A DNA stretch of 64,000 bases from Lytechinus variegatus (lineage: Eukaryota > Echinodermata > Echinoidea > Temnopleuroida > Toxopneustidae). Positions within the stretch are counted from its first letter, which is position 1. Each line of letters opens with the position of its first letter. A program made the position numbers and the translations under genes. The stretch spans positions 16,452,402-16,516,401 of the forward strand of contig NC_054756.1 in NCBI RefSeq assembly GCF_018143015.1, written 5' to 3'. Positions 2,242-64,000 of the stretch are shown piece after piece. The notes beneath the pieces are model-generated. The model ran no database searches. It was not told where the DNA came from and saw only the letters and a list, made by a program, of their open reading frames with translations.

Positions 2242-8407
<6,166 letters not shown>

Positions 8408-23809: not shown

Positions 23810-26800
23810 GTATTGTATACATACAATCAGCAATTGTAATTCCTGACATACCAAATTTGATCAAATCTTTTTGTTTCATCATATATTTACATTTGAATAA
23901 TTACTTTCCATAATGATTTAAGCTTTATTTGCATTGCCTCTATGACTATAATAAATGTAGATCTACATGTAGATTCATCCTACTGACACATTTTCTTTTC
24001 TTTTTTGAAATTAGGAACCATCTGAGCCAGCAGACATCAACACTGTGCTCCAGCAGCGTGCACAGTCTTATCAGCAGGCCATCGCTGCCGCTGAGGCAGC
24101 GGGTGAGAGTTCAAAGGTCAGGAGGTACAAGCGTCAGCTCAAGACGCTACAAGATATGCTGAGGAAGATAAAGCTGGGTAAACCCATCGATAAGGACGAG
24201 ATTCCCCCTGAGGTTTGTGTACCCAAACCAGCTGCAGATCAGCAACCTCCTCCCCAGGAGAAGCAGCCAGTGCCTGAAGCAGCTCCAGTAGCAGCAGTGT
24301 CTCAACCAATCTCTTCCCCAGCAGTGCAACCAGAGCAACCAGACACTGCCCAAAGCAAGAGTGCAGGTAATGAAGAGTGGAAAGGTGAAAGTGCAATATT
24401 TGGTTCAGGCCTGACAATTTGATAGTTTTTTTTACAAGAGGGCCACTTTCTTTAGAGCACATTTTTGTATTACAGCACACACTGGCAAAATGTGGCCATC
24501 CATCTCAAAACTTCAAGTAAATCACTAGAATGAATGAATTTTGAGATCTGTTTTAAGTTTTGAAAAGCAGATCATAAGCTTGGAAATGATTATTATTATT
24601 TATTCGGCAAATAATATTAAAAATTACATTTCAGTGTAAATAATAAAAAATAAGAAATATCAACCATTGGCACGCTAGGGACAGAAAAAGTTAACTTAAT
24701 TACTTTGGCATAAAGCCTCCTGTCCCAGTTCCAATGGTTGATTTACAATACATATTAATAACTAAACAATAAAATACTCATAGCTTGTCTAAGTTGATCA
24801 ACAATAAATCACACAAATATTTTATTTCCTGAACTAAAAATTTTAGTGAGAGCTTCACAGAATGTGGGGAAACTGCTGTTGGTATTTGGTTTGGAAATAA
24901 CGATGACAAAGAAACCACTCACTTTGGGTTTAATTTTGTAACTTCCAACTCCGACAAAATGGGCAAAATTTGCCTTTCAAATATGTATATATTTCCTATA
25001 CCACAAATCTCTCTTGGCTTATTTTAGAAAAACTTGCTTGGTGACCTATTATTTGTTTTGAGCTGGAGGGTCACAAATGGAAAAGGACCCAAAAACATCC
25101 AAAGCTAGCTAGATTGGCGTTGAGGCCTGGGCCCCGTTGCATAAAAGTTACCATTATGGTAACAGTGCCATCCAATGATATCTTTCATGGAATCCTTGAT
25201 TTTGATTGGCTGATGAGCATTGTTGCCATGGTAAAGGACCCCAAAATATCCAAAGCTAGCTAGATTGGCGTTGAGGCCTGGCCCTAGAAGACCCTAATTA
25301 AATAATGATATTATATACTGTTGTGAATTGAGCAGATGCTGATCAGCTGAAGTTGATAGGTGTGAGGAGAGACCAGTACAAAATGGCTGCACTACTTGCC
25401 AAGAGATCAGGTGACATGAAGACTGCCGCAGAACATCTCAAGGTTTCCAAGGTAAAGATGTGCAGTATATGAATATTGGATTGTGTTGCACTTTTAGATT
25501 TAACCAGCATTTATAAAAGGGACAAGGCATAAAGTAATATGCACTGTTCATGATGTATACATTTATGAGAGTTGAAATCTTTACTCTAATCACAGTTACT
25601 TTGAGAAGTTTCACAAACCAGACTCGTGACCAAAATAACTTTACCTCATTGTTGGTGATGATTTACAGAGAGGAGGGAGTTGATAACACAGCATGGGTTT
25701 GGTAGAGGAGAAAGCAGCATCACCAGCTAATTCATAGGTACATTTACTTTGGACAATTTTGAAAACAAGTAGACGGCGCTTGAAGGATATTTTTTCTCGA
25801 CCTGTTACCTTTTTATTTTCACCCCCAGCAATTTGATCTAGTTATCAAAGCCTTAGAATCAGGTCAGCAGGTTGACCTCAGTGAGATGCCTGGTCCTCCT
25901 TCCCAACCAGCACCAGCAGCTCCTCAGCAAGCTCCAGTTCCACAACCTCGGGCGCCTGCTCCAACAGCTCCTGGTCCCAGTCCATCAGCAGTTCCTGGTC
26001 CCGGTCCATCAGCAGCTCCTGGACCAGGACCCTCAGCAAGCTCCGAGGAGGAGCCACCTACTCCCAAGACGGATCTTGAGGCCATGCTTCAGAGGAGAGG
26101 GGTGTATAAGAGCATGGCTGACAAGGCAAAGGAAGAGAATAACGACTCCAAAACTCGTAGGATTGGTCGCATTGTCAAGGTTCGTAAAGAATCCTAAGTT
26201 GGTTCCTTGACAATTAGATTGTTCTTTGGGCCTGATGTTGCCATCCTAAAATGATGAAAAGTGCCCATGACTGCCACTTAAAAAACAATACTTTTATTTG
26301 TTTTAAAGCACAAGCGAATTAAATATGAAATAACACTATTCTTAAATCTGTCCATGCCACTTAAAAACAATAATTATTATTATTTTCTTTTTAAAGCACA
26401 AGCTAATTAAATATGAAATAACACTATTCTTAAATCTGTCCATGTTGGGAGCTAAAGGGAATGTGTTGGAGGGGAGTCTGTGAATTCGCACAATAAGTCC
26501 AAATCACAAATACATTTGACTGCTATGTCTCCTGACTTGCAAAAATTTCAAATATAAATTTGTGACAAGCGTGTATGCTGTTCCAATTTTACACAATTTT
26601 TTTTGTAAAGTGCATGTCAGCCCCAAACTTGCTCAAAAACATGTTTTCATACATATGTGTAATTCCAATGCAAATTCAAACCTAATGCAAACCTTAATTC
26701 ATAAATGTGTCATTACTTGTTCTTTTGCTGACATAAATTAATTTCATGTTCATGATAATGAGAGAGAAGAAAAGGTCCCTGTAATGTTCAAAGTAAAGTC

Positions 26801-44800: not shown

Positions 44801-47349
44801 AAACATGTAGACAAGTGTACACCTTTGGGTTCTCTTTCAGGCACATAAACATGATTATAAAATGTGAACATCCTGATCAAGTAAATGCTCAAGCTGATCT
44901 GATGGAGCTTGAAATAACCCCAAGCAAATGCTTAAAGATTGTTTAATGAATATCTTTCTATGTACTGCATGTGTAAAGTTTGTGGTCCTCGCCTATCTTC
45001 TTTTACTAGAATCTCGCACAGATACACGTATGCGCAGACAAAAGCACTGCACAGACTTAAGGGACCTTACCATATAAAAATATGTACAAAAAGTTACAAT
45101 CAATTGTGAATATTGATCATGGGCCCATTTCATAAAGAGTTACAACTGTGGTAACTTTAATGTTATGACAACTACCATGGAAACCTTCATTCTGATTGGC
45201 TGCTGAGCCCTGTTACCATGGTAGTTGCCATAATGGCAAAGTTACGATAGTTGTAACTCTTTATGAATTGGGCCCCATATCTCTATATGGTACACCTCAG
45301 ATTGCTGACATGCAAGCACACAAGCAGCAGGTCCCTAATGAATTTGCTATGAGCTACAGAACACTTCAAGAGAGATTACAGAAACTACAGATATTCTTGA
45401 AGGAAGGAGGGTCACAAGCTAGAAATGGTATGGTATTATTACTTTTATCAAAGAGCTTTTTAACTGGAACAAATTATTTAAAAAAAAAAGGGAGTTTGTT
45501 TTGACATTGAAATCTTAACCTAAGTTAAGTTTTGGAAATGTCATCATAACTGAGAAACTAGATGCACCTGTTTCGGGGAACTTGGACACAAGCATAAACA
45601 TGTAATCACTCATCATCATGCTTAAGTTTCAGGTGCCAAGATCAAGGTTAAAGGTTATTTAGGGTCAATGAACTTTGACCATGTTTGGGATATTAACATT
45701 GAACATTTTTAACCAAGATTAAGTTTTTGAAATGTCAGCATAACCTATTTTAAAAGTATAAGGGTCTTTTTAATGAAACTTGGACATCCCTTGTTAATTG
45801 AACGGATTGTTCTTGTTCACAATGTTGTTCAGATCTCAGATGTGTGTCACAACATATTTTTAAGTCTGACTGAACCATAAATATGCATTGAAATTTACAC
45901 TGTAAATGCAATAACTCATCACCTTGCTGCGACCTTTATCTTTTGACATTTGACCTTCATCTTTTTACCTTACACAAGGTTACATGCCTTGTCACCCAAC
46001 CTTCTTAGGTCAGGCCAAAGAGGCTGTCCAATCAGCTTTCTTGACTTTCACAGTATAGATATATGATGCTCTGTGAACTTTGAATTTTGTTTTACAGCAT
46101 ATTTAACAAGGTTACAAGCCCTGTCACCAAGCTTGCTAGCCCAGGCCAAGGAAGCTCTCCAAGCAGGCCAGAAGGAGAAGGCTTCCATGTTCATGACCAG
46201 GAGGAAACTTGTTGATGCAGAAGTAAGTTTTTTTAACACTAATGTAGCTCCTTGTTACCTTTGCTCCTCAACACCCCTTCCCCTCCCTTCTTCTCCTCGC
46301 TCCTCTTTATATGCCTCCTCATCCTCTTATTTCCCTCTCCTCCTCCTCTCCTACCCATCTTGCTTTCGCTCTCTGCCCCCTCCTAGCCCATGCAAAAGAA
46401 GCTCTTCATGACTAGGACAAAATTGTATTCATACAGAAGTAAGTTTTACAGAGAAGAATTTGTAATATGAATTTTGTACCTTGGCCCCTCCACTACTTTC
46501 CTTCTCAACCATCACCTTACCCCTCTCCCCTTGTTCCTTTTCCTCATCTGCTACCGATTCTCCTTTCACGCTCCCCCCCCCCCCCCCCCTCTTCAAAGCC
46601 CATGCCAAATAAGTTCTCCTTGCAGTTCATGACCAAGAGGAAATTTTATTCATTTTAAGTTTTACATGGAAGAATTTGTAATATAATTTTGTACCCTCAC
46701 CCCTCCCCTACTTTGCTTCTTCATCCCCCTTCCCCCCACTCTTCTTCCTCGTCCTGGCCCATTCCAAAGAAGATATCCATGTATTTTATGACCAAGAGAA
46801 CATTTGTTCATGCAGAAGTAAGTTTTACACAAGAATTTGTGATTTGAGCCCTGCCCCCTAACAACCTGCAATACGGCCATATCATGAAGAATGTGTTTGA
46901 TGAATTTACATCAGAGGGTGTTCATTGCACCACACACCTCGTTACTGGTCTACGATCCAATGTTCAAAGAAATCCGATTTTCCACCTTTTTGCAGATTTT
47001 TTGAGGTTCAGAATAGTTATAAGACTTCTGATATTAATATTTTAAGCAATTTTAAGCCTTTGTCTCAGAGTATAAAAATGGATTTATAATGACAGATGAT
47101 CAATGATTTAACTGAAGTTTAAATAGAGCTGGGCCTTGGATAAATTTCACTCATTTGTTGGCCATAAATAATGTCATTTGAATCATGTTTGTAAATTCAC
47201 TTTATTTTTTAGCATGGGAAGGCAATCTGCATTGAGCGTCCAACACTAGCACCAACCTTGAAATTAACTATTGTCATCAGAAATACTAACAAATTTCTTT
47301 CAACTCGCTTTCTTCATTCTTCCAGATTGCATCGTTATCAAGGAGATAG
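19598..47349 (+). CDS. cc2d1a: CC2D1 (Lgd family) coiled-coil and C2 domain protein, 24 exons
   Basis: Lgd/CC2D1 proteins bind the ESCRT-III subunit CHMP4/Shrub through DM14 repeats and limit endosomal Notch activation; vertebrate paralogues also act in signalling and gene repression. Exons: 19598-19654, 20782-20959, 22952-23049, 23561-23809, 24015-24366, 25336-25451, 25829-26179, 26819-27092, 27862-27992, 29343-29399, 30674-30817, 31604-31662, 32354-32470, 33045-33118, 33872-33927, 34786-34937, 35257-35347, 36822-36956, 37896-37925, 38789-38841, 44251-44311, 45301-45427, 46098-46222, 47326-47349. All junctions are GT-AG, phases join, and the total is 3111 nt (1036 codons plus TAG), against about 950 residues for human CC2D1A. 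The short last exon (IASLSRR) matches the vertebrate C-terminal pattern ending in Arg-Arg. I cannot tell the A from the B paralogue; an invertebrate would be expected to have one gene. Confidence 0.93.
20357..20383. repeat. Perfect 11-bp stem hairpin in CC2D1 intron 1
   Basis: GAACAAGGTTA and TAACCTTGTTC flank a 5-nt loop (TCTCG). It is isolated and its function is unknown. Confidence 0.7.
21769..22015 (-). repeat. SINE-like repeat, GCGCTATATAAAAG tail
   Basis: Read on the minus strand, it ends in AAGCGCTATATAAAAGC then GGGTTATTATTATTA, a tail type common to SINE/LINE repeats of marine invertebrates. Related tails occur at 8975, 33715 and 38496. It lies in CC2D1 intron 2. Confidence 0.5.
22432..22495. 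repeat. Two palindromes around AGTCGACT
   Basis: Positions 22432-22455 form a perfect 24-bp palindrome with core CAATAGTCGACTATTG. Positions 22474-22495 form a second, one-mismatch version (GTGCACTAGTCGACTATTGC). The spacer includes an inverted CTCCAGTAGGAG. They lie in CC2D1 intron 2. Confidence 0.75.
22765..22920. mobile_element. Foldback element in CC2D1 intron 2
   Basis: The left arm (GCGACTGTTCAAATATTACA then CAACTTGAAG..ATCTATTCAA) recurs inverted at the right (TTGAATAGAT, CAACTTGCA, TGTAATAT, CAATCGCAC). A related ATTCAAC/GTTGAAT palindrome with a hyphenated centre occurs near 28730-28760. Confidence 0.5.
24015..29399 (+). CDS. cc2d1a: CC2D1 exons 5-10: four DM14 repeats
   Basis: DM14-1 is in exon 5 (LQQRAQSYQQAIAAAEAAGE through LGKPIDKDEIP, about residues 203-258). 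DM14-2 spans exons 6-7 (RRDQYKMAALLAKRSGD to ESGQQVDLSEMPG). DM14-3 spans exons 7-8 (LEAMLQRRGVYKSMADKAKE to LGKPVDLSELP). DM14-4 spans exons 9-10 (LKDRIAQFRKLALEAKRRGD to GGLPVNLDS). An intron splits repeats 2, 3 and 4 after the same VSK, IVK or ISK position, as expected for exon-wise repeat growth. Linkers are Pro/Ala/Gln-rich with a PGPSPSA/PGPGPSA short repeat in exon 7. These repeats are the CHMP4-binding part in known family members. Confidence 0.92.
25083..25280. repeat. 48-bp direct repeats bracketing a MITE fragment
   Basis: A 48-bp sequence (centre AAAGCTAGCTAGATTGGCG) occurs at 25083-25130 and 25233-25280 with about three differences. Between them is a foldback fragment beginning GGCCCCGTTGCATAAAAG and ending GTTGCCATGGTAA. 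It lies in CC2D1 intron 5. Confidence 0.75.
26273..26444. repeat. Tandem duplication, about 85-bp unit
   Basis: Two adjacent copies (26273-26355, 26356-26444) share GCCACTTAAAAA, AAAGCACAAGC, AATTAAATATGAAATAACAC and ATTCTTAAATCTGTCCAT. Only a few differences separate them, so the duplication is fairly recent. It lies in CC2D1 intron 7. Confidence 0.8.
29420..29510 (+). repeat. tRNA-like SINE head in CC2D1 intron 10
   Basis: A perfect B box GGTTCAAATCC (29483-29493) follows about 60 nt of tRNA-sized sequence that includes TCGGTAGAGG. The acceptor stem does not pair well, so it is read as a SINE fragment and not a tRNA gene. Confidence 0.4.
30674..36956 (+). CDS. cc2d1a: CC2D1 exons 11-18: helical linker and C2 domain
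   Basis: Exons 11-13 (FEMVADGSAEEVYKRLIATL, then NAKVYGKLGNIKSAKRFEEF) match the QRPGPGLSQEAARRYGELTK to TTKFEKLAEDCKRSMDILKQ helical segment of CC2D1A. Exons 14-18 encode the C2 domain, about residues 728-897: ITIVQGLQL, FPYPS, AVNPQYNSSCMVEINRGSRA, HKTLGTASLKLAEL, GGKIEVKIRLHHPL and KEKWLVVD. The family C2 binds phospholipids and is of the kind that often lacks a full set of calcium-binding aspartates. Confidence 0.92.
30920..31425. mobile_element. Foldback MITE family 2 (AGAGTTACGATTGATCCGAT ends), compound
   Basis: The AGAGTTGCGATTGATCCGAT motif, followed by CACAACTATGGAAAG, recurs at 30942 and 31180, and the cluster closes with GGTTGATCCAATCAAAC then CTTTGTAAGA. This indicates two tandem or nested copies. 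Other copies are at 36465-36724 and 52790-52970. It lies in CC2D1 intron 11. Confidence 0.6.
31910..32181. mobile_element. TTAA-flanked MITE with GTCAAATTGACCCC motifs
   Basis: The left end TTAACCCTTACTTAAC and right end GTTAAATTAGGGTTAA are inverted copies flanked by TTAA, as in piggyBac-type insertions. A subterminal GTCAAATTGACCCC occurs near both ends (about 31943 and 32124). It lies in CC2D1 intron 12 and has no coding capacity. Confidence 0.65.
33655..33835 (-). repeat. AAT-rich microsatellite and SINE tail
   Basis: An ATAATAATA run (33655-33740) leads into GCTCTTGTAAAGCACATATC then ACGTCCCTGTGGGCTTCC. This is the tail type also seen at 38496-38700. It lies in CC2D1 intron 14. Confidence 0.5.
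34339..34564. mobile_element. Foldback MITE family 3 (GGGGTGTTGCA ends), copy 1
   Basis: Begins GGGGTGTTGCATG, with TTTGCAATCAATCGCAAATA inside, and ends with the inverted TTGCAATTGATCGCAAG and GTTGAAACGGCCC. Copy 2 is at 51556-51766 in inverse layout. It lies in CC2D1 intron 15. Confidence 0.65.
36465..36724. mobile_element. Foldback MITE family 2, single copy
   Basis: Begins GGGGCCCGTCATACAAAGAG then TTACGATTGATCCGATCAAC, and ends with the inverted TTGATCAGATCAAAC, TCTTTGTAAGA and CGGGCCC. The internal GAAAACAAAAAGAAGCATTC region matches the copy at 52790. It lies in CC2D1 intron 17. Confidence 0.7.
37896..47349 (+). CDS. cc2d1a: CC2D1 exons 19-24: Ser-rich linker and helical C-terminus
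   Basis: Exon 19 is a 30-nt in-frame microexon (VSSPPAASK). Exon 20 is Ser-rich. Exon 21 (TDSIEILKWEIGTLKKK) matches the vertebrate LAFDQERLERKILAL helix. Exon 22 (VPNEFAMSYRTLQERLQKLQ) matches VPPEVAQQYQDIMQRSQWQR. Exon 23 (LLAQAKEALQAGQKEKASMF then MTRRKLVDAE) matches DAAKEALYRRNLVESE. Exon 24 ends the protein with IASLSRR and TAG. The 5.4-kb intron 20 is the longest and holds several transposons. Exon 24 is short, so its call rests on an excellent pyrimidine tract, correct phase and a family-like end. Confidence 0.85.
38496..38700 (-). repeat. SINE fragment with tRNA-SINE body
   Basis: On the minus strand: CCAGGTACCTGGCAGGAATT, then GCGCTGTAATC and a tail GATATGCGCTATACAAGAAC followed by an ATT-rich run. 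The body resembles the SINE at 50990-51236. It lies in CC2D1 intron 19. Confidence 0.5.
40605..40930 (+). repeat. Dispersed repeat rich in AGGTCA half-sites
   Basis: Opens TTATACCCTCTGTAGTTGG and contains GTCTGTCCATCCGTCTGTG, then GGGTCAAAGGTCACATAGGT. This layout is common in marine-invertebrate repeats. A second weak relative is at 45540-45760. No reading frame. It lies in CC2D1 intron 20. Confidence 0.45.
41005..41442. mobile_element. Complete TTAA-flanked MITE
   Basis: Flanked by TTAA at 41005-41008 and 41439-41442. The terminal inverted repeats are about 45 bp (left AAAGGGGAAGTTCACCCTGA; right complement AAAGGGAAAGTTCATCCTGA), each followed by a form of AAACTTT.TTGTAAAAATAGCAG. Short length, TTAA duplication and no transposase fit a non-autonomous piggyBac-type element. 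It lies in CC2D1 intron 20. Confidence 0.8.
42491..42560. repeat. Adjacent palindromes
   Basis: Positions 42525-42560 form a palindrome with perfect 17-bp arms (CATAGACAGATCATAAG / CTTATGATCTGTCTATG) around 2 nt. Just before it, 42491-42522 has a weaker inverted pair (ATGAATTGAGTT / AACTCAAGTTCAT). It lies in CC2D1 intron 20. Confidence 0.8.
43402..43992. mobile_element. Large TTAA-flanked foldback MITE
   Basis: TTAA at 43402-43405 and 43989-43992. The left arm (AAAGGGGAATGAAACCTTTG, AACAGGAAAATCAAAGAA, ATGCCATGGAGATCCTC) is repeated inverted at the right (GAGGATCTCCATGGCAT, TTCTTTGATTTTTCTGTTTT, GTTTCATTCTCCTTTAA). It appears whole for a non-autonomous element. A one-ended relative begins near 50664. 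It lies in CC2D1 intron 20. Confidence 0.8.
45121..45275. mobile_element. Foldback MITE touching the exon 22 acceptor region
   Basis: Begins GGGCCCATTTCATAAAGAGT then TACAACTGTGGTAAC, and ends with the inverted GTTGTAACTCTTTATGAATT then GGGCCC. The middle includes GTTACCATGGTAGTTGCC. The element ends only 25 nt before CC2D1 exon 22. Confidence 0.75.
45965..46832. repeat. Decayed partial copies of CC2D1 exon 23 around the real exon
   Basis: Upstream, 45972-46040 resembles the first 70 nt of the exon (ACAAGGTTACATGCCTTGTC versus ACAAGGTTACAAGCCCTGTC; CAGGCCAAAGAGGCTGTCC versus CAGGCCAAGGAAGCTCTCC). Downstream, about 46398-46447, 46617-46668 and 46772-46832 resemble its last 50-60 nt plus donor (TTCATGACCAAGAGGAAA-like, then CAGAAGTAAGTTTTAC). 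Each downstream copy is followed by a CT-rich CCCCTCCC tract, so the unit is exon edge plus intron start, period about 160-220 bp. Confidence 0.75.
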
Positions 47350-48260
47350 AAGCTTTCAGGGTCAACCCAAGTGCCATGCTAAGATGAAAAATATAGAGTC
47401 TTGTTCTCCTAAGATTGACATCGATACCTGTGGAACACAGAGAGAGAGACCTGGAACATGTGTGATAAATGGTTACAATCAATTAACTTCAACCATTATT
47501 GTGATTACCATGGATTCCTTGATTGTGATTTGCTGTTGAGCCTCGTTACCATGGTATTTGCCATGATGGCAAATTAACATATTTGTAAGTTTTTATGTAG
47601 CCGACCCCGGGACTCCAAAACACAAAGGCCCGAATTCACAAAGGTGGTTTTGAAAACCCGCAGTTGAAACCATGGTTTCTGTAGATTTCATGTATACATT
47701 AAGCTTAATTTAGCGCGTATCGGGAATGTGTATAAAAATGCTGATGCGCACTTTTGTCACAGTGTGCCAAATTAATGCCTGTTACCATGGTTAGATACGT
47801 TATTTTATAAAATAGATGTAATTAATACAGGAAATCTGCATAAACTATGGACTCAACTGTGGGTTTTCAAAACCACCTTTGTGAATTCGGGCCAAAGGTT
47901 TTCAATGGATTGCAAATGGTGTATGAAAGAACCGTTTTGATTGGTTCCTTGTCAGTGCTTTGAAAAGGATGCTCATGCAAGACTGATCTTGATTAGTCAA
48001 TGCCACATAGCGAGTGATTACAAGCCTTTGCATTGAAGAGCCCAGACAGTGTTGATCAATAATTATATGTTGTATGAGATGATTTTTACTTGTATTTTTG
48101 TAAGAAATCTAGCTAGGTAGCAATGCTCAATGTTGTACAATGTATATTCAGGTGTAAAAGCATTGATATTCCTGTTATCCAGATAATATAGTTCAGATAA
48201 TATATTTATTAGCCAGATCATTGTTTTATAAGCAATAAAGTAAATCTTAAAAATAAACTT
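47350..48260 (+). other. cc2d1a: CC2D1 3' UTR with poly(A) signal
   Basis: Runs from the TAG to a canonical AATAAA at 48234-48239, the first good signal downstream. It contains two foldback pieces (about 47470-47600 and 47627-47893). The end is inferred. Confidence 0.5.
47627..47893. mobile_element. Foldback MITE in the CC2D1 3' UTR
   Basis: Terminal inverted repeats of about 40 bp: left GGCCCGAATTCACAAAGGTG then GTTTTGAAAACCC, right GGGTTTTCAAAACCACC then TTTGTGAATTCGGGCC. Only a few mismatches; no coding capacity. Confidence 0.8.
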
Positions 48261-62530: not shown

Positions 62531-62752
62531 TACACCCACAAATGTAATAATCGCCCACAAATGTAATAACGCCCACAAATGTAATAACACTTTACCCACA
62601 AATGTAATAACGCCCACAAATGTAATAACACTTTACCCACAAATGTAATAATTTCACCCACAAATGTAATAATGCACTTTACCCACAAATGTAATAATTT
62701 TTGATCGCCCACAAATGTAATAATGACTTTACCCACAAATGTAATAAATTTG
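62531..62752. repeat. Iteron cluster, CCCACAAATGTAATAA units
   Basis: About ten direct copies of CCCACAAATGTAATAA, all in the same orientation, separated by variable spacers of about 2-15 nt, several of which contain CACTTTA or GACTTTA. The unit is nearly invariant while spacing varies. Confidence 0.9.
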
Positions 62753-62835
62753 AAGGGATTTTTGGCAAATCCGTTCTAAGCTAAAATCGTAAAGTAATGC
62801 GTTCATTTAGCACAAACGTGCAAAGTCTCATTTCC

Positions 62836-64000
62836 TGACCCGGTTAATTAACAAATTATAATATAAGTCCAAAGTCTTTATTCCAAACTCGTTTTTTTCA
62901 AAATTATAATATAAATCCAAAGTCTTTATTCCAGACCCGGTTGTTTCAAAAATAATAATATGAGCCCAAAGTCTTTATTCCAGACCCGGTTGTTTCAAAA
63001 TTATAATATGAGCCCAAAGTCTTTATTCCAGACCCGGTTGTTTCAAAATTATAATATGAATCCAAAGTCTTTATTCCAGACCCGGTTGTTTCGAAAATAA
63101 TATGAGCCCAAAGTCTTTATTCAAGACCCGGTTGTTTCGAAAATAATAATATGAGCCCAAAGTCTTTATTCCAGACCCGGTTGTTTCGAAAATAATAATA
63201 TGAGCCCAAAGTCTTTATTCCAGACCCGGTTGTTTAAAAAATAACAATATAAGCCCAAAGTCTTTATTCCAGACCCGGTTGTTACAAAAATTATAATATA
63301 AATCCAAAGTTTTTTCCAGACCCTGTTGTTTCAAAAATTACAATATAAATCAAAAGTCTTTATTCCAGACCCTGTTGTTTCAAAAATTATAATATAAATA
63401 AATAGTCTTTATTCCAGACCCGGTTGTTTAGAAAATAATAATATAAGTCCAAAGTCTTTATTCCAAACCCGGTTTTTTGAAAAATTATAATATAAATCCA
63501 AAGTCTTTATTCCAGACCCGGTTGTTTCAAAATTATAATATAAATCCAAAGTCTTTATTCCAGACCCGGTTGTTTCAAAAATAATAATATGAGCCCAAAG
63601 TCTTTATTCCAGACCCGGTTGTTTCAAAATTATAATATAAATCAAAAGTCTTTATTCCAGTCCCGGTTGTTTCAAAAATAATAATATGAGCCCAAAGTCT
63701 TTATTCCAGACCCGGTTGTTTAAAAAATTATAATATAAATCCAAAGTCTTTATTCCAGACCCGGTTGTTTCAAAAATAATAATATGAGCCCAAAGTCTTT
63801 ATTCCAGACCCGGTTGTTTAAAAAATAATCAAATGATCCAAAAGTCTTTATTCTAGACCCGATTGTTTAAAAAATGATTATATAAGTCCAAAGTCTTTTC
63901 TCCAGACCCGGTTGTTTCAAAAATTATAATATGAGCCCAAAGTCTTTATTCCAGACCCGGTTGTTTAAAGAATTATAATATAAATCAAAAGTCTTTATTC
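62836..64000. repeat. 48-bp satellite array, continues past the window
   Basis: About 24 tandem units of 46-50 bp. The consensus runs CCAGACCCGGTTGTTT, then AAAATTATAATAT, then AAATCC or GAGCCC, then AAAGTCTTTATT. Two subtypes exist (ATAAATCCAAAG and ATGAGCCCAAAG). The last unit is cut by the window edge. Confidence 0.95.

Follow-up and report, generated by a model that had tools for sequence, protein, structure and literature searches.

Decayed partial copies of a CC2D1 exon in its own introns in Lytechinus variegatus, probably left by half-exon tandem duplications

Partial self-copies on both sides of the exon

An intact exon at 46098–46222 (+) in a 64,000-nucleotide (nt) stretch of Lytechinus variegatus DNA (contig NC_054756.1, positions 16,452,402–16,516,401; the whole stretch is hereafter the window, to which all plain coordinates refer) is accompanied in both adjoining introns by decayed copies of its own ends, which we call echoes. 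We confirmed that these echoes are genuine, old, decayed partial self-copies, and they are very probably the remains of neutral half-exon tandem duplications, with one breakpoint within the exon and a second in the flanking intron. The exon is 125 nt long, is open in phase 2 and closes with a complete codon; its 3' border reads GCAGAA followed directly by GTAAGT, with the donor GT at 46223. We read it as the penultimate exon of CC2D1 (exon 23 in the numbering of the preliminary description of the window). The gene is putatively CC2D1, a label that rests on a match to the CC2D1 DM14 domain (Pfam PF21528) at 24034–24212 (E 6.1e-25) and not on the exon itself.

The upstream echo (45974–46035, +) copies the 5' part of the exon (46106–46166) with a local alignment score of 63 and 80.6% identity, and is put out of frame by a 1-nt insertion. 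Its similarity may extend, weakly, across the acceptor into the intron (P = 0.041 for the intron-to-intron part). Alignment of the exon with the downstream intron gave a score of 58, and the segment copied there (46136–46231, +) comprises the 3' part of the exon, the donor and the start of the intron. Both scores were evaluated against 1000 dinucleotide shuffles and against 894 and 924 random window stretches. None of the 1000 shuffles reached either score, the best being 30 upstream and 32 downstream, and the best random stretch scored 28. The preliminary description had reported, within 45965–46832, one worn copy of the 5' part upstream and three worn copies of the 3' part plus donor downstream. 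Pairwise alignment over this interval upheld the similarity, the upstream copy was borne out, and three downstream copies were found, of which only the first and third have the donor, exactly at the positions given for it (46439 and 46818).

Downstream echo 1 (about 46383–46447, +) is 32 nt shorter than the exon, follows a pyrimidine tract and TAG, and has an intact donor (GT at 46439); if included, it would add 52 nt and so cause a frameshift. Echo 2 (about 46593–46663, +) belongs to the same kind of repeat unit and is 23 nt shorter than the exon, a small deletion having removed its donor. Echo 3 (about 46754–46826, +), also 23 nt shorter, retains the donor (GT at 46818) and has lost the acceptor-like AG (CTGG). 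The edges of the echoes place breakpoints inside the exon at about 46136 and 46166, with the intact exon kept beside them.

The downstream echoes had been taken for separate copies of the exon. This did not hold: the whole unit of about 160–220 nt is repeated, including the 3' part of the exon, the donor and a pyrimidine-rich intron tract (46253–46382, +; 87% C+T next to the exon). The units align with one another across the exon part, the donor, about 40 nt of intron and the tract, which is 84–88% pyrimidine among the units. They resemble one another more than they resemble the exon's own unit, which the three window units match weakly (identity 0.55–0.59), as would be expected if the intron parts drifted on both sides while the exon stayed constant. 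Because the units are closer to each other than to the unit of the exon, the three copies most reasonably represent a single exon-to-intron event, followed by a tandem array. Direct repeats holding exon and adjacent intron sequence are thus present downstream; upstream, the exon part is strong and the intron part weak. Tandem Repeats Finder, run with a minimum score of 40, did not list the downstream array, presumably because its units are too divergent.

A second copy of the locus

An exon matching that of CC2D1 was found 1.73 Mb further along the chromosome, with 125/125 aligned bases identical; the comparison shows one gap opening, which is caused by a one-base coordinate offset. The collinear block between the two copies of the locus covers at least 36.7–56 kb of the window. 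The stretch around the TDH (threonine dehydrogenase) gene (99% over 625 bases) and a kinase gene at 58.5 kb each have a partner at almost the same distance (1.730 to 1.733 Mb). The TDH, CC2D1 and kinase copies lie in C17:18185876-18244282 (loci L004, L005, L082 and L018) in the order of the window. Identity of the aligned blocks varies along the region from 99% to below 80%. Many further genes were seen in pairs separated by some Mb on the same chromosome, in either orientation, a pattern suggesting that both haplotypes were kept in the assembly. The second copy is therefore probably the other haplotype, a real duplication being the alternative.

The second copy holds four downstream echoes (A, B, C and D) compared with three in the window. 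C and D correspond to echoes 2 and 3 (0.80 and 0.91), whereas A and B both correspond to echo 1 (0.89 and 0.85) and match each other at 0.88. Units thus stand head to tail in a number that differs between the copies, as in a minisatellite or intronic tandem array. The distance from anchor to anchor is 52 nt in the exon, 29 nt in echoes 2, 3, C and D, and 20 nt in echoes 1, A and B, so that all seven downstream echoes are shorter than the exon, by 23 nt in the first group and 32 nt in the second. The loss is at least 23 nt in every one of them, the exact position of the gap varying with the alignment. Three of the four echoes in the second copy retain the GTAAGT donor, and the counterpart of echo 3 has an AG with an in-frame TAG.

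Several further differences between the copies were noted. The second copy has an insertion of about 640 nt between the upstream echo and the exon (L004:8076-8711) and one of 156 nt within echo A, with inverted TGGGC.../...GCCCA ends (L004:9058-9213); both are absent from the window. A tandem repeat of 150–190 nt is present in about five copies at L004:6600-7480 and about two at 45504–45744 of the window. The array beside TDH exon 5, unlike that of CC2D1, appears equally long in both copies (3716–4340, −, in a single 99% match over 625 nt). A genome search found the CC2D1 array unit nowhere beyond the two copies of the locus, the counts being lower bounds.

The conservation of the downstream echo cores between the two copies was then compared with that of the remainder of the units plus the 150 nt after the last echo. 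The cores were identical at 185/205 positions and the remainder at 332/364 (p = 0.76), so no extra conservation of the downstream cores was seen between the two copies. There is little sign of constraint on the echoes.

Echoed exons elsewhere and their background rate

The preliminary description had pointed to TDH exon 5 (its numbering) as a second, unrelated gene of the window with an echoed exon edge, and this companion case proved real. The exon lies at 3715–3805 (−), and an array upstream of it (3806–4326, −) contains at least four units with the exon's acceptor and roughly its first 40 nt. The gene was confirmed as TDH by its resemblance to threonine dehydrogenases of solved structure.

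To place these cases in a wider frame, a genome sample was used instead of a count of window exons, because an ab initio exon finder that had been trained on exons of the sample was too insensitive for a gene model of the full window. The sample comprised 74 loci with kinase (30 of 130 rows), myosin head (30 of 72) and aldehyde dehydrogenase (14 of 14) exons and 1.5 kb flanks; 93 SNF, 124 kinesin and 15 AMP-binding rows were left out of the count. Removal of seven near-identical pairs left 67 loci. The exon edges are approximate, as 19 of the 74 matches contain in-frame stops, probably where the profile match overran exon ends or bridged introns.

Five of 134 exon-flank tests scored at least 28 and four scored at least 40; one of these four, L053, matches through an ATG microsatellite and was excluded. 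The echoed exons of the sample were L058 and L062 (both myosin) and L067 (aldehyde dehydrogenase). In L058 the copy lies at an offset of 197 nt, the exon part is identical at 75/78 positions, and the two breakpoints are legible, one of them inside the exon. L062 has several echo units, and L067, like the CC2D1 exon, has echoes on both sides. A cross-locus null of 1608 comparisons had a 99.9% quantile of 61.8, with outliers of up to 390, probably related gene copies, left in; against this null alone, L067 (51) and L062 (41) are not outstanding at the 0.1% level. Significance was judged instead from an own-inverted control (maximum 27 in 134), a count of local duplications and a pseudo-exon test. 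Control segments of the flanks scored at least 40 in 10/134 direct and 9/134 inverted cases, which are local repeats, some of low complexity.

At all seven echoed edges, from five exons (CC2D1 and L067 on both sides, TDH exon 5, L058 and L062), the acceptor side was copied upstream and the donor side downstream. This geometry fits tandem duplication cut through an exon, because such duplication must produce it, whereas random landing need not.

For comparison with the echo rate, pseudo-exons with lengths close to those of the exons (at most 900 nt) were positioned randomly in the flanks of these loci, with 2000 placements. Three of the 67 sampled exons were echoed, compared with 3.46 ± 1.57 pseudo-exons per 67, so that exons showed no excess of echoes over flank stretches of equal size in this sample. 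Consistent with this result, 24 local direct duplications in the 228 kb of the 67 loci predict 2.3 matches on the 134 edges, and three were found in the same way; a fourth edge, upstream of L067, was found by exon-flank alignment and not by this count. In the window, where the exons are partly known, three of 13 local duplication clusters touch a recognised exon edge and the other ten do not.

These figures bear on the proposal that a general process acts on exon edges, in which slippage or exchange would prefer splice junctions and copy exon ends into introns genome-wide. Echoes in two genes of one window and in three of 67 sampled exons, and on both sides of the CC2D1 and L067 exons, are what such a process would leave, but pseudo-exons in the same flanks are matched about as often and most duplication clusters of the window lie off any recognised exon edge. 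We consider a process of this kind improbable. The preliminary description had named an excess of self-exon matches as the check on its general claim, and as far as 67 exons can tell the excess is absent. What stands of that claim is that local duplication leaves copies of exon edges, with splice sites, in their own introns, that this recurs in the sample, and that array length changes later. Since the echo rate is no higher than background, short tandem duplication, occurring everywhere and filtered by the exon staying intact, appears to be the general process.

Several young-looking tandem duplications (97–100% identical, units of 74–103 nt) were seen in the flanks of sampled exons (L047:701-850, L017:1088-1398 and L054:1100-1404), suggesting that the duplication process is still active in this genome. 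Elsewhere in the window, the ends of a stretch at 47627–47893 resemble inverted copies of each other (GGCCCGAATTCACAAAGGTGG...), as in a foldback element or miniature inverted-repeat transposable element, and the corresponding stretch of the second copy likewise aligns to it in inverted orientation. Tandem arrays occupy 62535–64000; among them, about 24 copies of a 49-nt repeat run to the window edge (Tandem Repeats Finder). Rfam and tRNA scans across the window gave 0 matches.

Origin of the echoes and comparison with known systems

In the proposed mechanism, a short segment with one end in an exon and the other in the adjoining intron would be duplicated head to tail. Duplication of an intron end with the 5' part of the exon would leave the intact exon downstream and an acceptor with the 5' part upstream; duplication of the 3' part with the intron start would leave the intact exon upstream and the 3' part with a donor downstream. 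Because the mRNA can remain unchanged in either case, a half-exon duplication could drift to fixation, in contrast to duplications within an exon or of a whole exon, which would alter the protein. Both kinds would have occurred at the CC2D1 exon, most simply once each. At least 23 nt of exon sequence would then have disappeared from the downstream copy, which would have been re-duplicated into an array of units of about 160–220 nt; the number of units still differs between the two copies of the locus. A single exon-to-intron duplication, shortened once in an ancestor before the array grew, would require the fewest events. The original events were probably neutral, re-duplication may have proceeded by unequal exchange or slippage aided by the pyrimidine tract, and survival bias would explain why exon edges are what is seen.

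Several points weigh against this account. The seven edges come from just five exons, and the side rule was framed after the first cases. The background test has low power, with three events in 67, approximate exon edges and flanks that possibly hold other exons, so that a modest preference for exon edges is possible. Because the intron-to-intron similarity of the upstream unit is weak, a complete tandem unit on that side is something we infer. The upstream echo is identical between the locus copies at 61/62 positions compared with 438/476 surrounding aligned bases (45500–46064; p = 0.07), and 53 of the 477 62-base runs of that interval reach the same level; this slightly higher conservation could be a hint of constraint. 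Finally, despite clear divergence otherwise, the GTAAGT donor is kept in two of the three window echoes and in three of the four belonging to the second copy, a retention that may or may not exceed chance.

The last two points are also those that would favour decoy or poison splice sites, kept for regulating removal of the last CC2D1 intron. Echo 1 with its pyrimidine tract, TAG and intact GTAAGT, echo 3 with its intact donor, and the corresponding intact donors in the second copy would suit such a role, as would the conservation of the upstream echo, which lies in the preceding intron. We rejected a functional decoy, since the downstream cores are no better conserved between the copies than their surroundings; moreover, A, one of the two units corresponding to echo 1, is interrupted by the 156-nt insertion, and echo 3 has lost its AG in the window and has an in-frame TAG in its counterpart. 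Retained decoys are accordingly a very improbable source of the echoes, more so than a process aimed at exon edges.

Less probable again, and hardly to be expected, is decay of formerly whole duplicated exons, for example mutually exclusive ones: the echoes jointly cover both halves of the exon, but each is one-sided in both locus copies, as in TDH exon 5, L058, L062 and on each side of L067, the upstream echo is frameshifted and the downstream echoes are 23 or 32 nt short. An origin from a transposon or dispersed repeat was discarded, as the array unit was found just at the two copies of the locus, in counts that are lower bounds, and a processed, RNA-derived copy likewise, as a donor and intron sequence are present in the downstream echoes and no echo is more than 0.7 kb away from the exon.

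Half-exon tandem duplication offers a simple rule for a puzzling pattern: the duplications survive because the exon survives. The sample also gives a rough rate of echoed exons in this genome (3/67). A further idea, which we regard as doubtful, is that half-exon duplications form a standing and variable supply of decoy splice sites, affecting several percent of exons, invariably on the side that leaves the exon intact and in arrays of variable length, with a fraction spliced at a low level and able to seed new introns or pseudo-exons. If such decoys were ever used, half-exon duplications would be a step before intron gain or the birth of a pseudo-exon, as in potato (PMC4974935), and a genome with many echoes of differing age would allow that route to be timed. 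As they stand, the CC2D1 echoes look like ordinary genome debris.

A literature search, largely without subscription papers, found no earlier statement of the half-exon side rule among the titles and opening lines of abstracts listed, and we make no claim that it is unpublished. In the potato RdRp gene, an intron was gained by a tandem duplication holding the 3' end of an intron and the 5' part of an exon, with a breakpoint inside the exon; an 83-bp tandem duplication within the first intron left gene structure unchanged (PMC4974935). The CC2D1 case shares with it a tandem duplication across a border with a breakpoint in the exon. It differs in that the extra acceptor in potato was used and made a new intron, whereas the CC2D1-type copies are decayed, occur on the donor side as well, have grown into arrays and are not known to be used.

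Exonize detects intronic and inter-boundary exon duplications, including unannotated or degenerate exons, across 20 eukaryote genomes (PMC12343006), and its cases resemble ours in that exon-derived sequence lies in introns of the gene itself. Its exon coverage cut-off and its use of tblastx would place half-exon, out-of-frame echoes of 40–60 nt mostly outside its scope, and the passages concerned report neither a side rule nor an intron-matched background rate. Tandem exon duplications, some unannotated, and exon-like sequence in introns or other DNA of the same gene were also found by similarity in a study whose available text focuses on duplicated exons, some of them expressed (PMC9013439); the CC2D1 echoes are halves with no signs of coding use. 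Internal tandem repeats at exon-intron boundaries have been described in human segmental duplications, where copy number differs between paralogs (PMC2812944). Repeat units at an exon-intron boundary in numbers that differ between copies are common to both, although in the human cases described the repeat count changes the transcript. The class of half-exon or border duplications is thus already in print, and CC2D1 is a further member of it.

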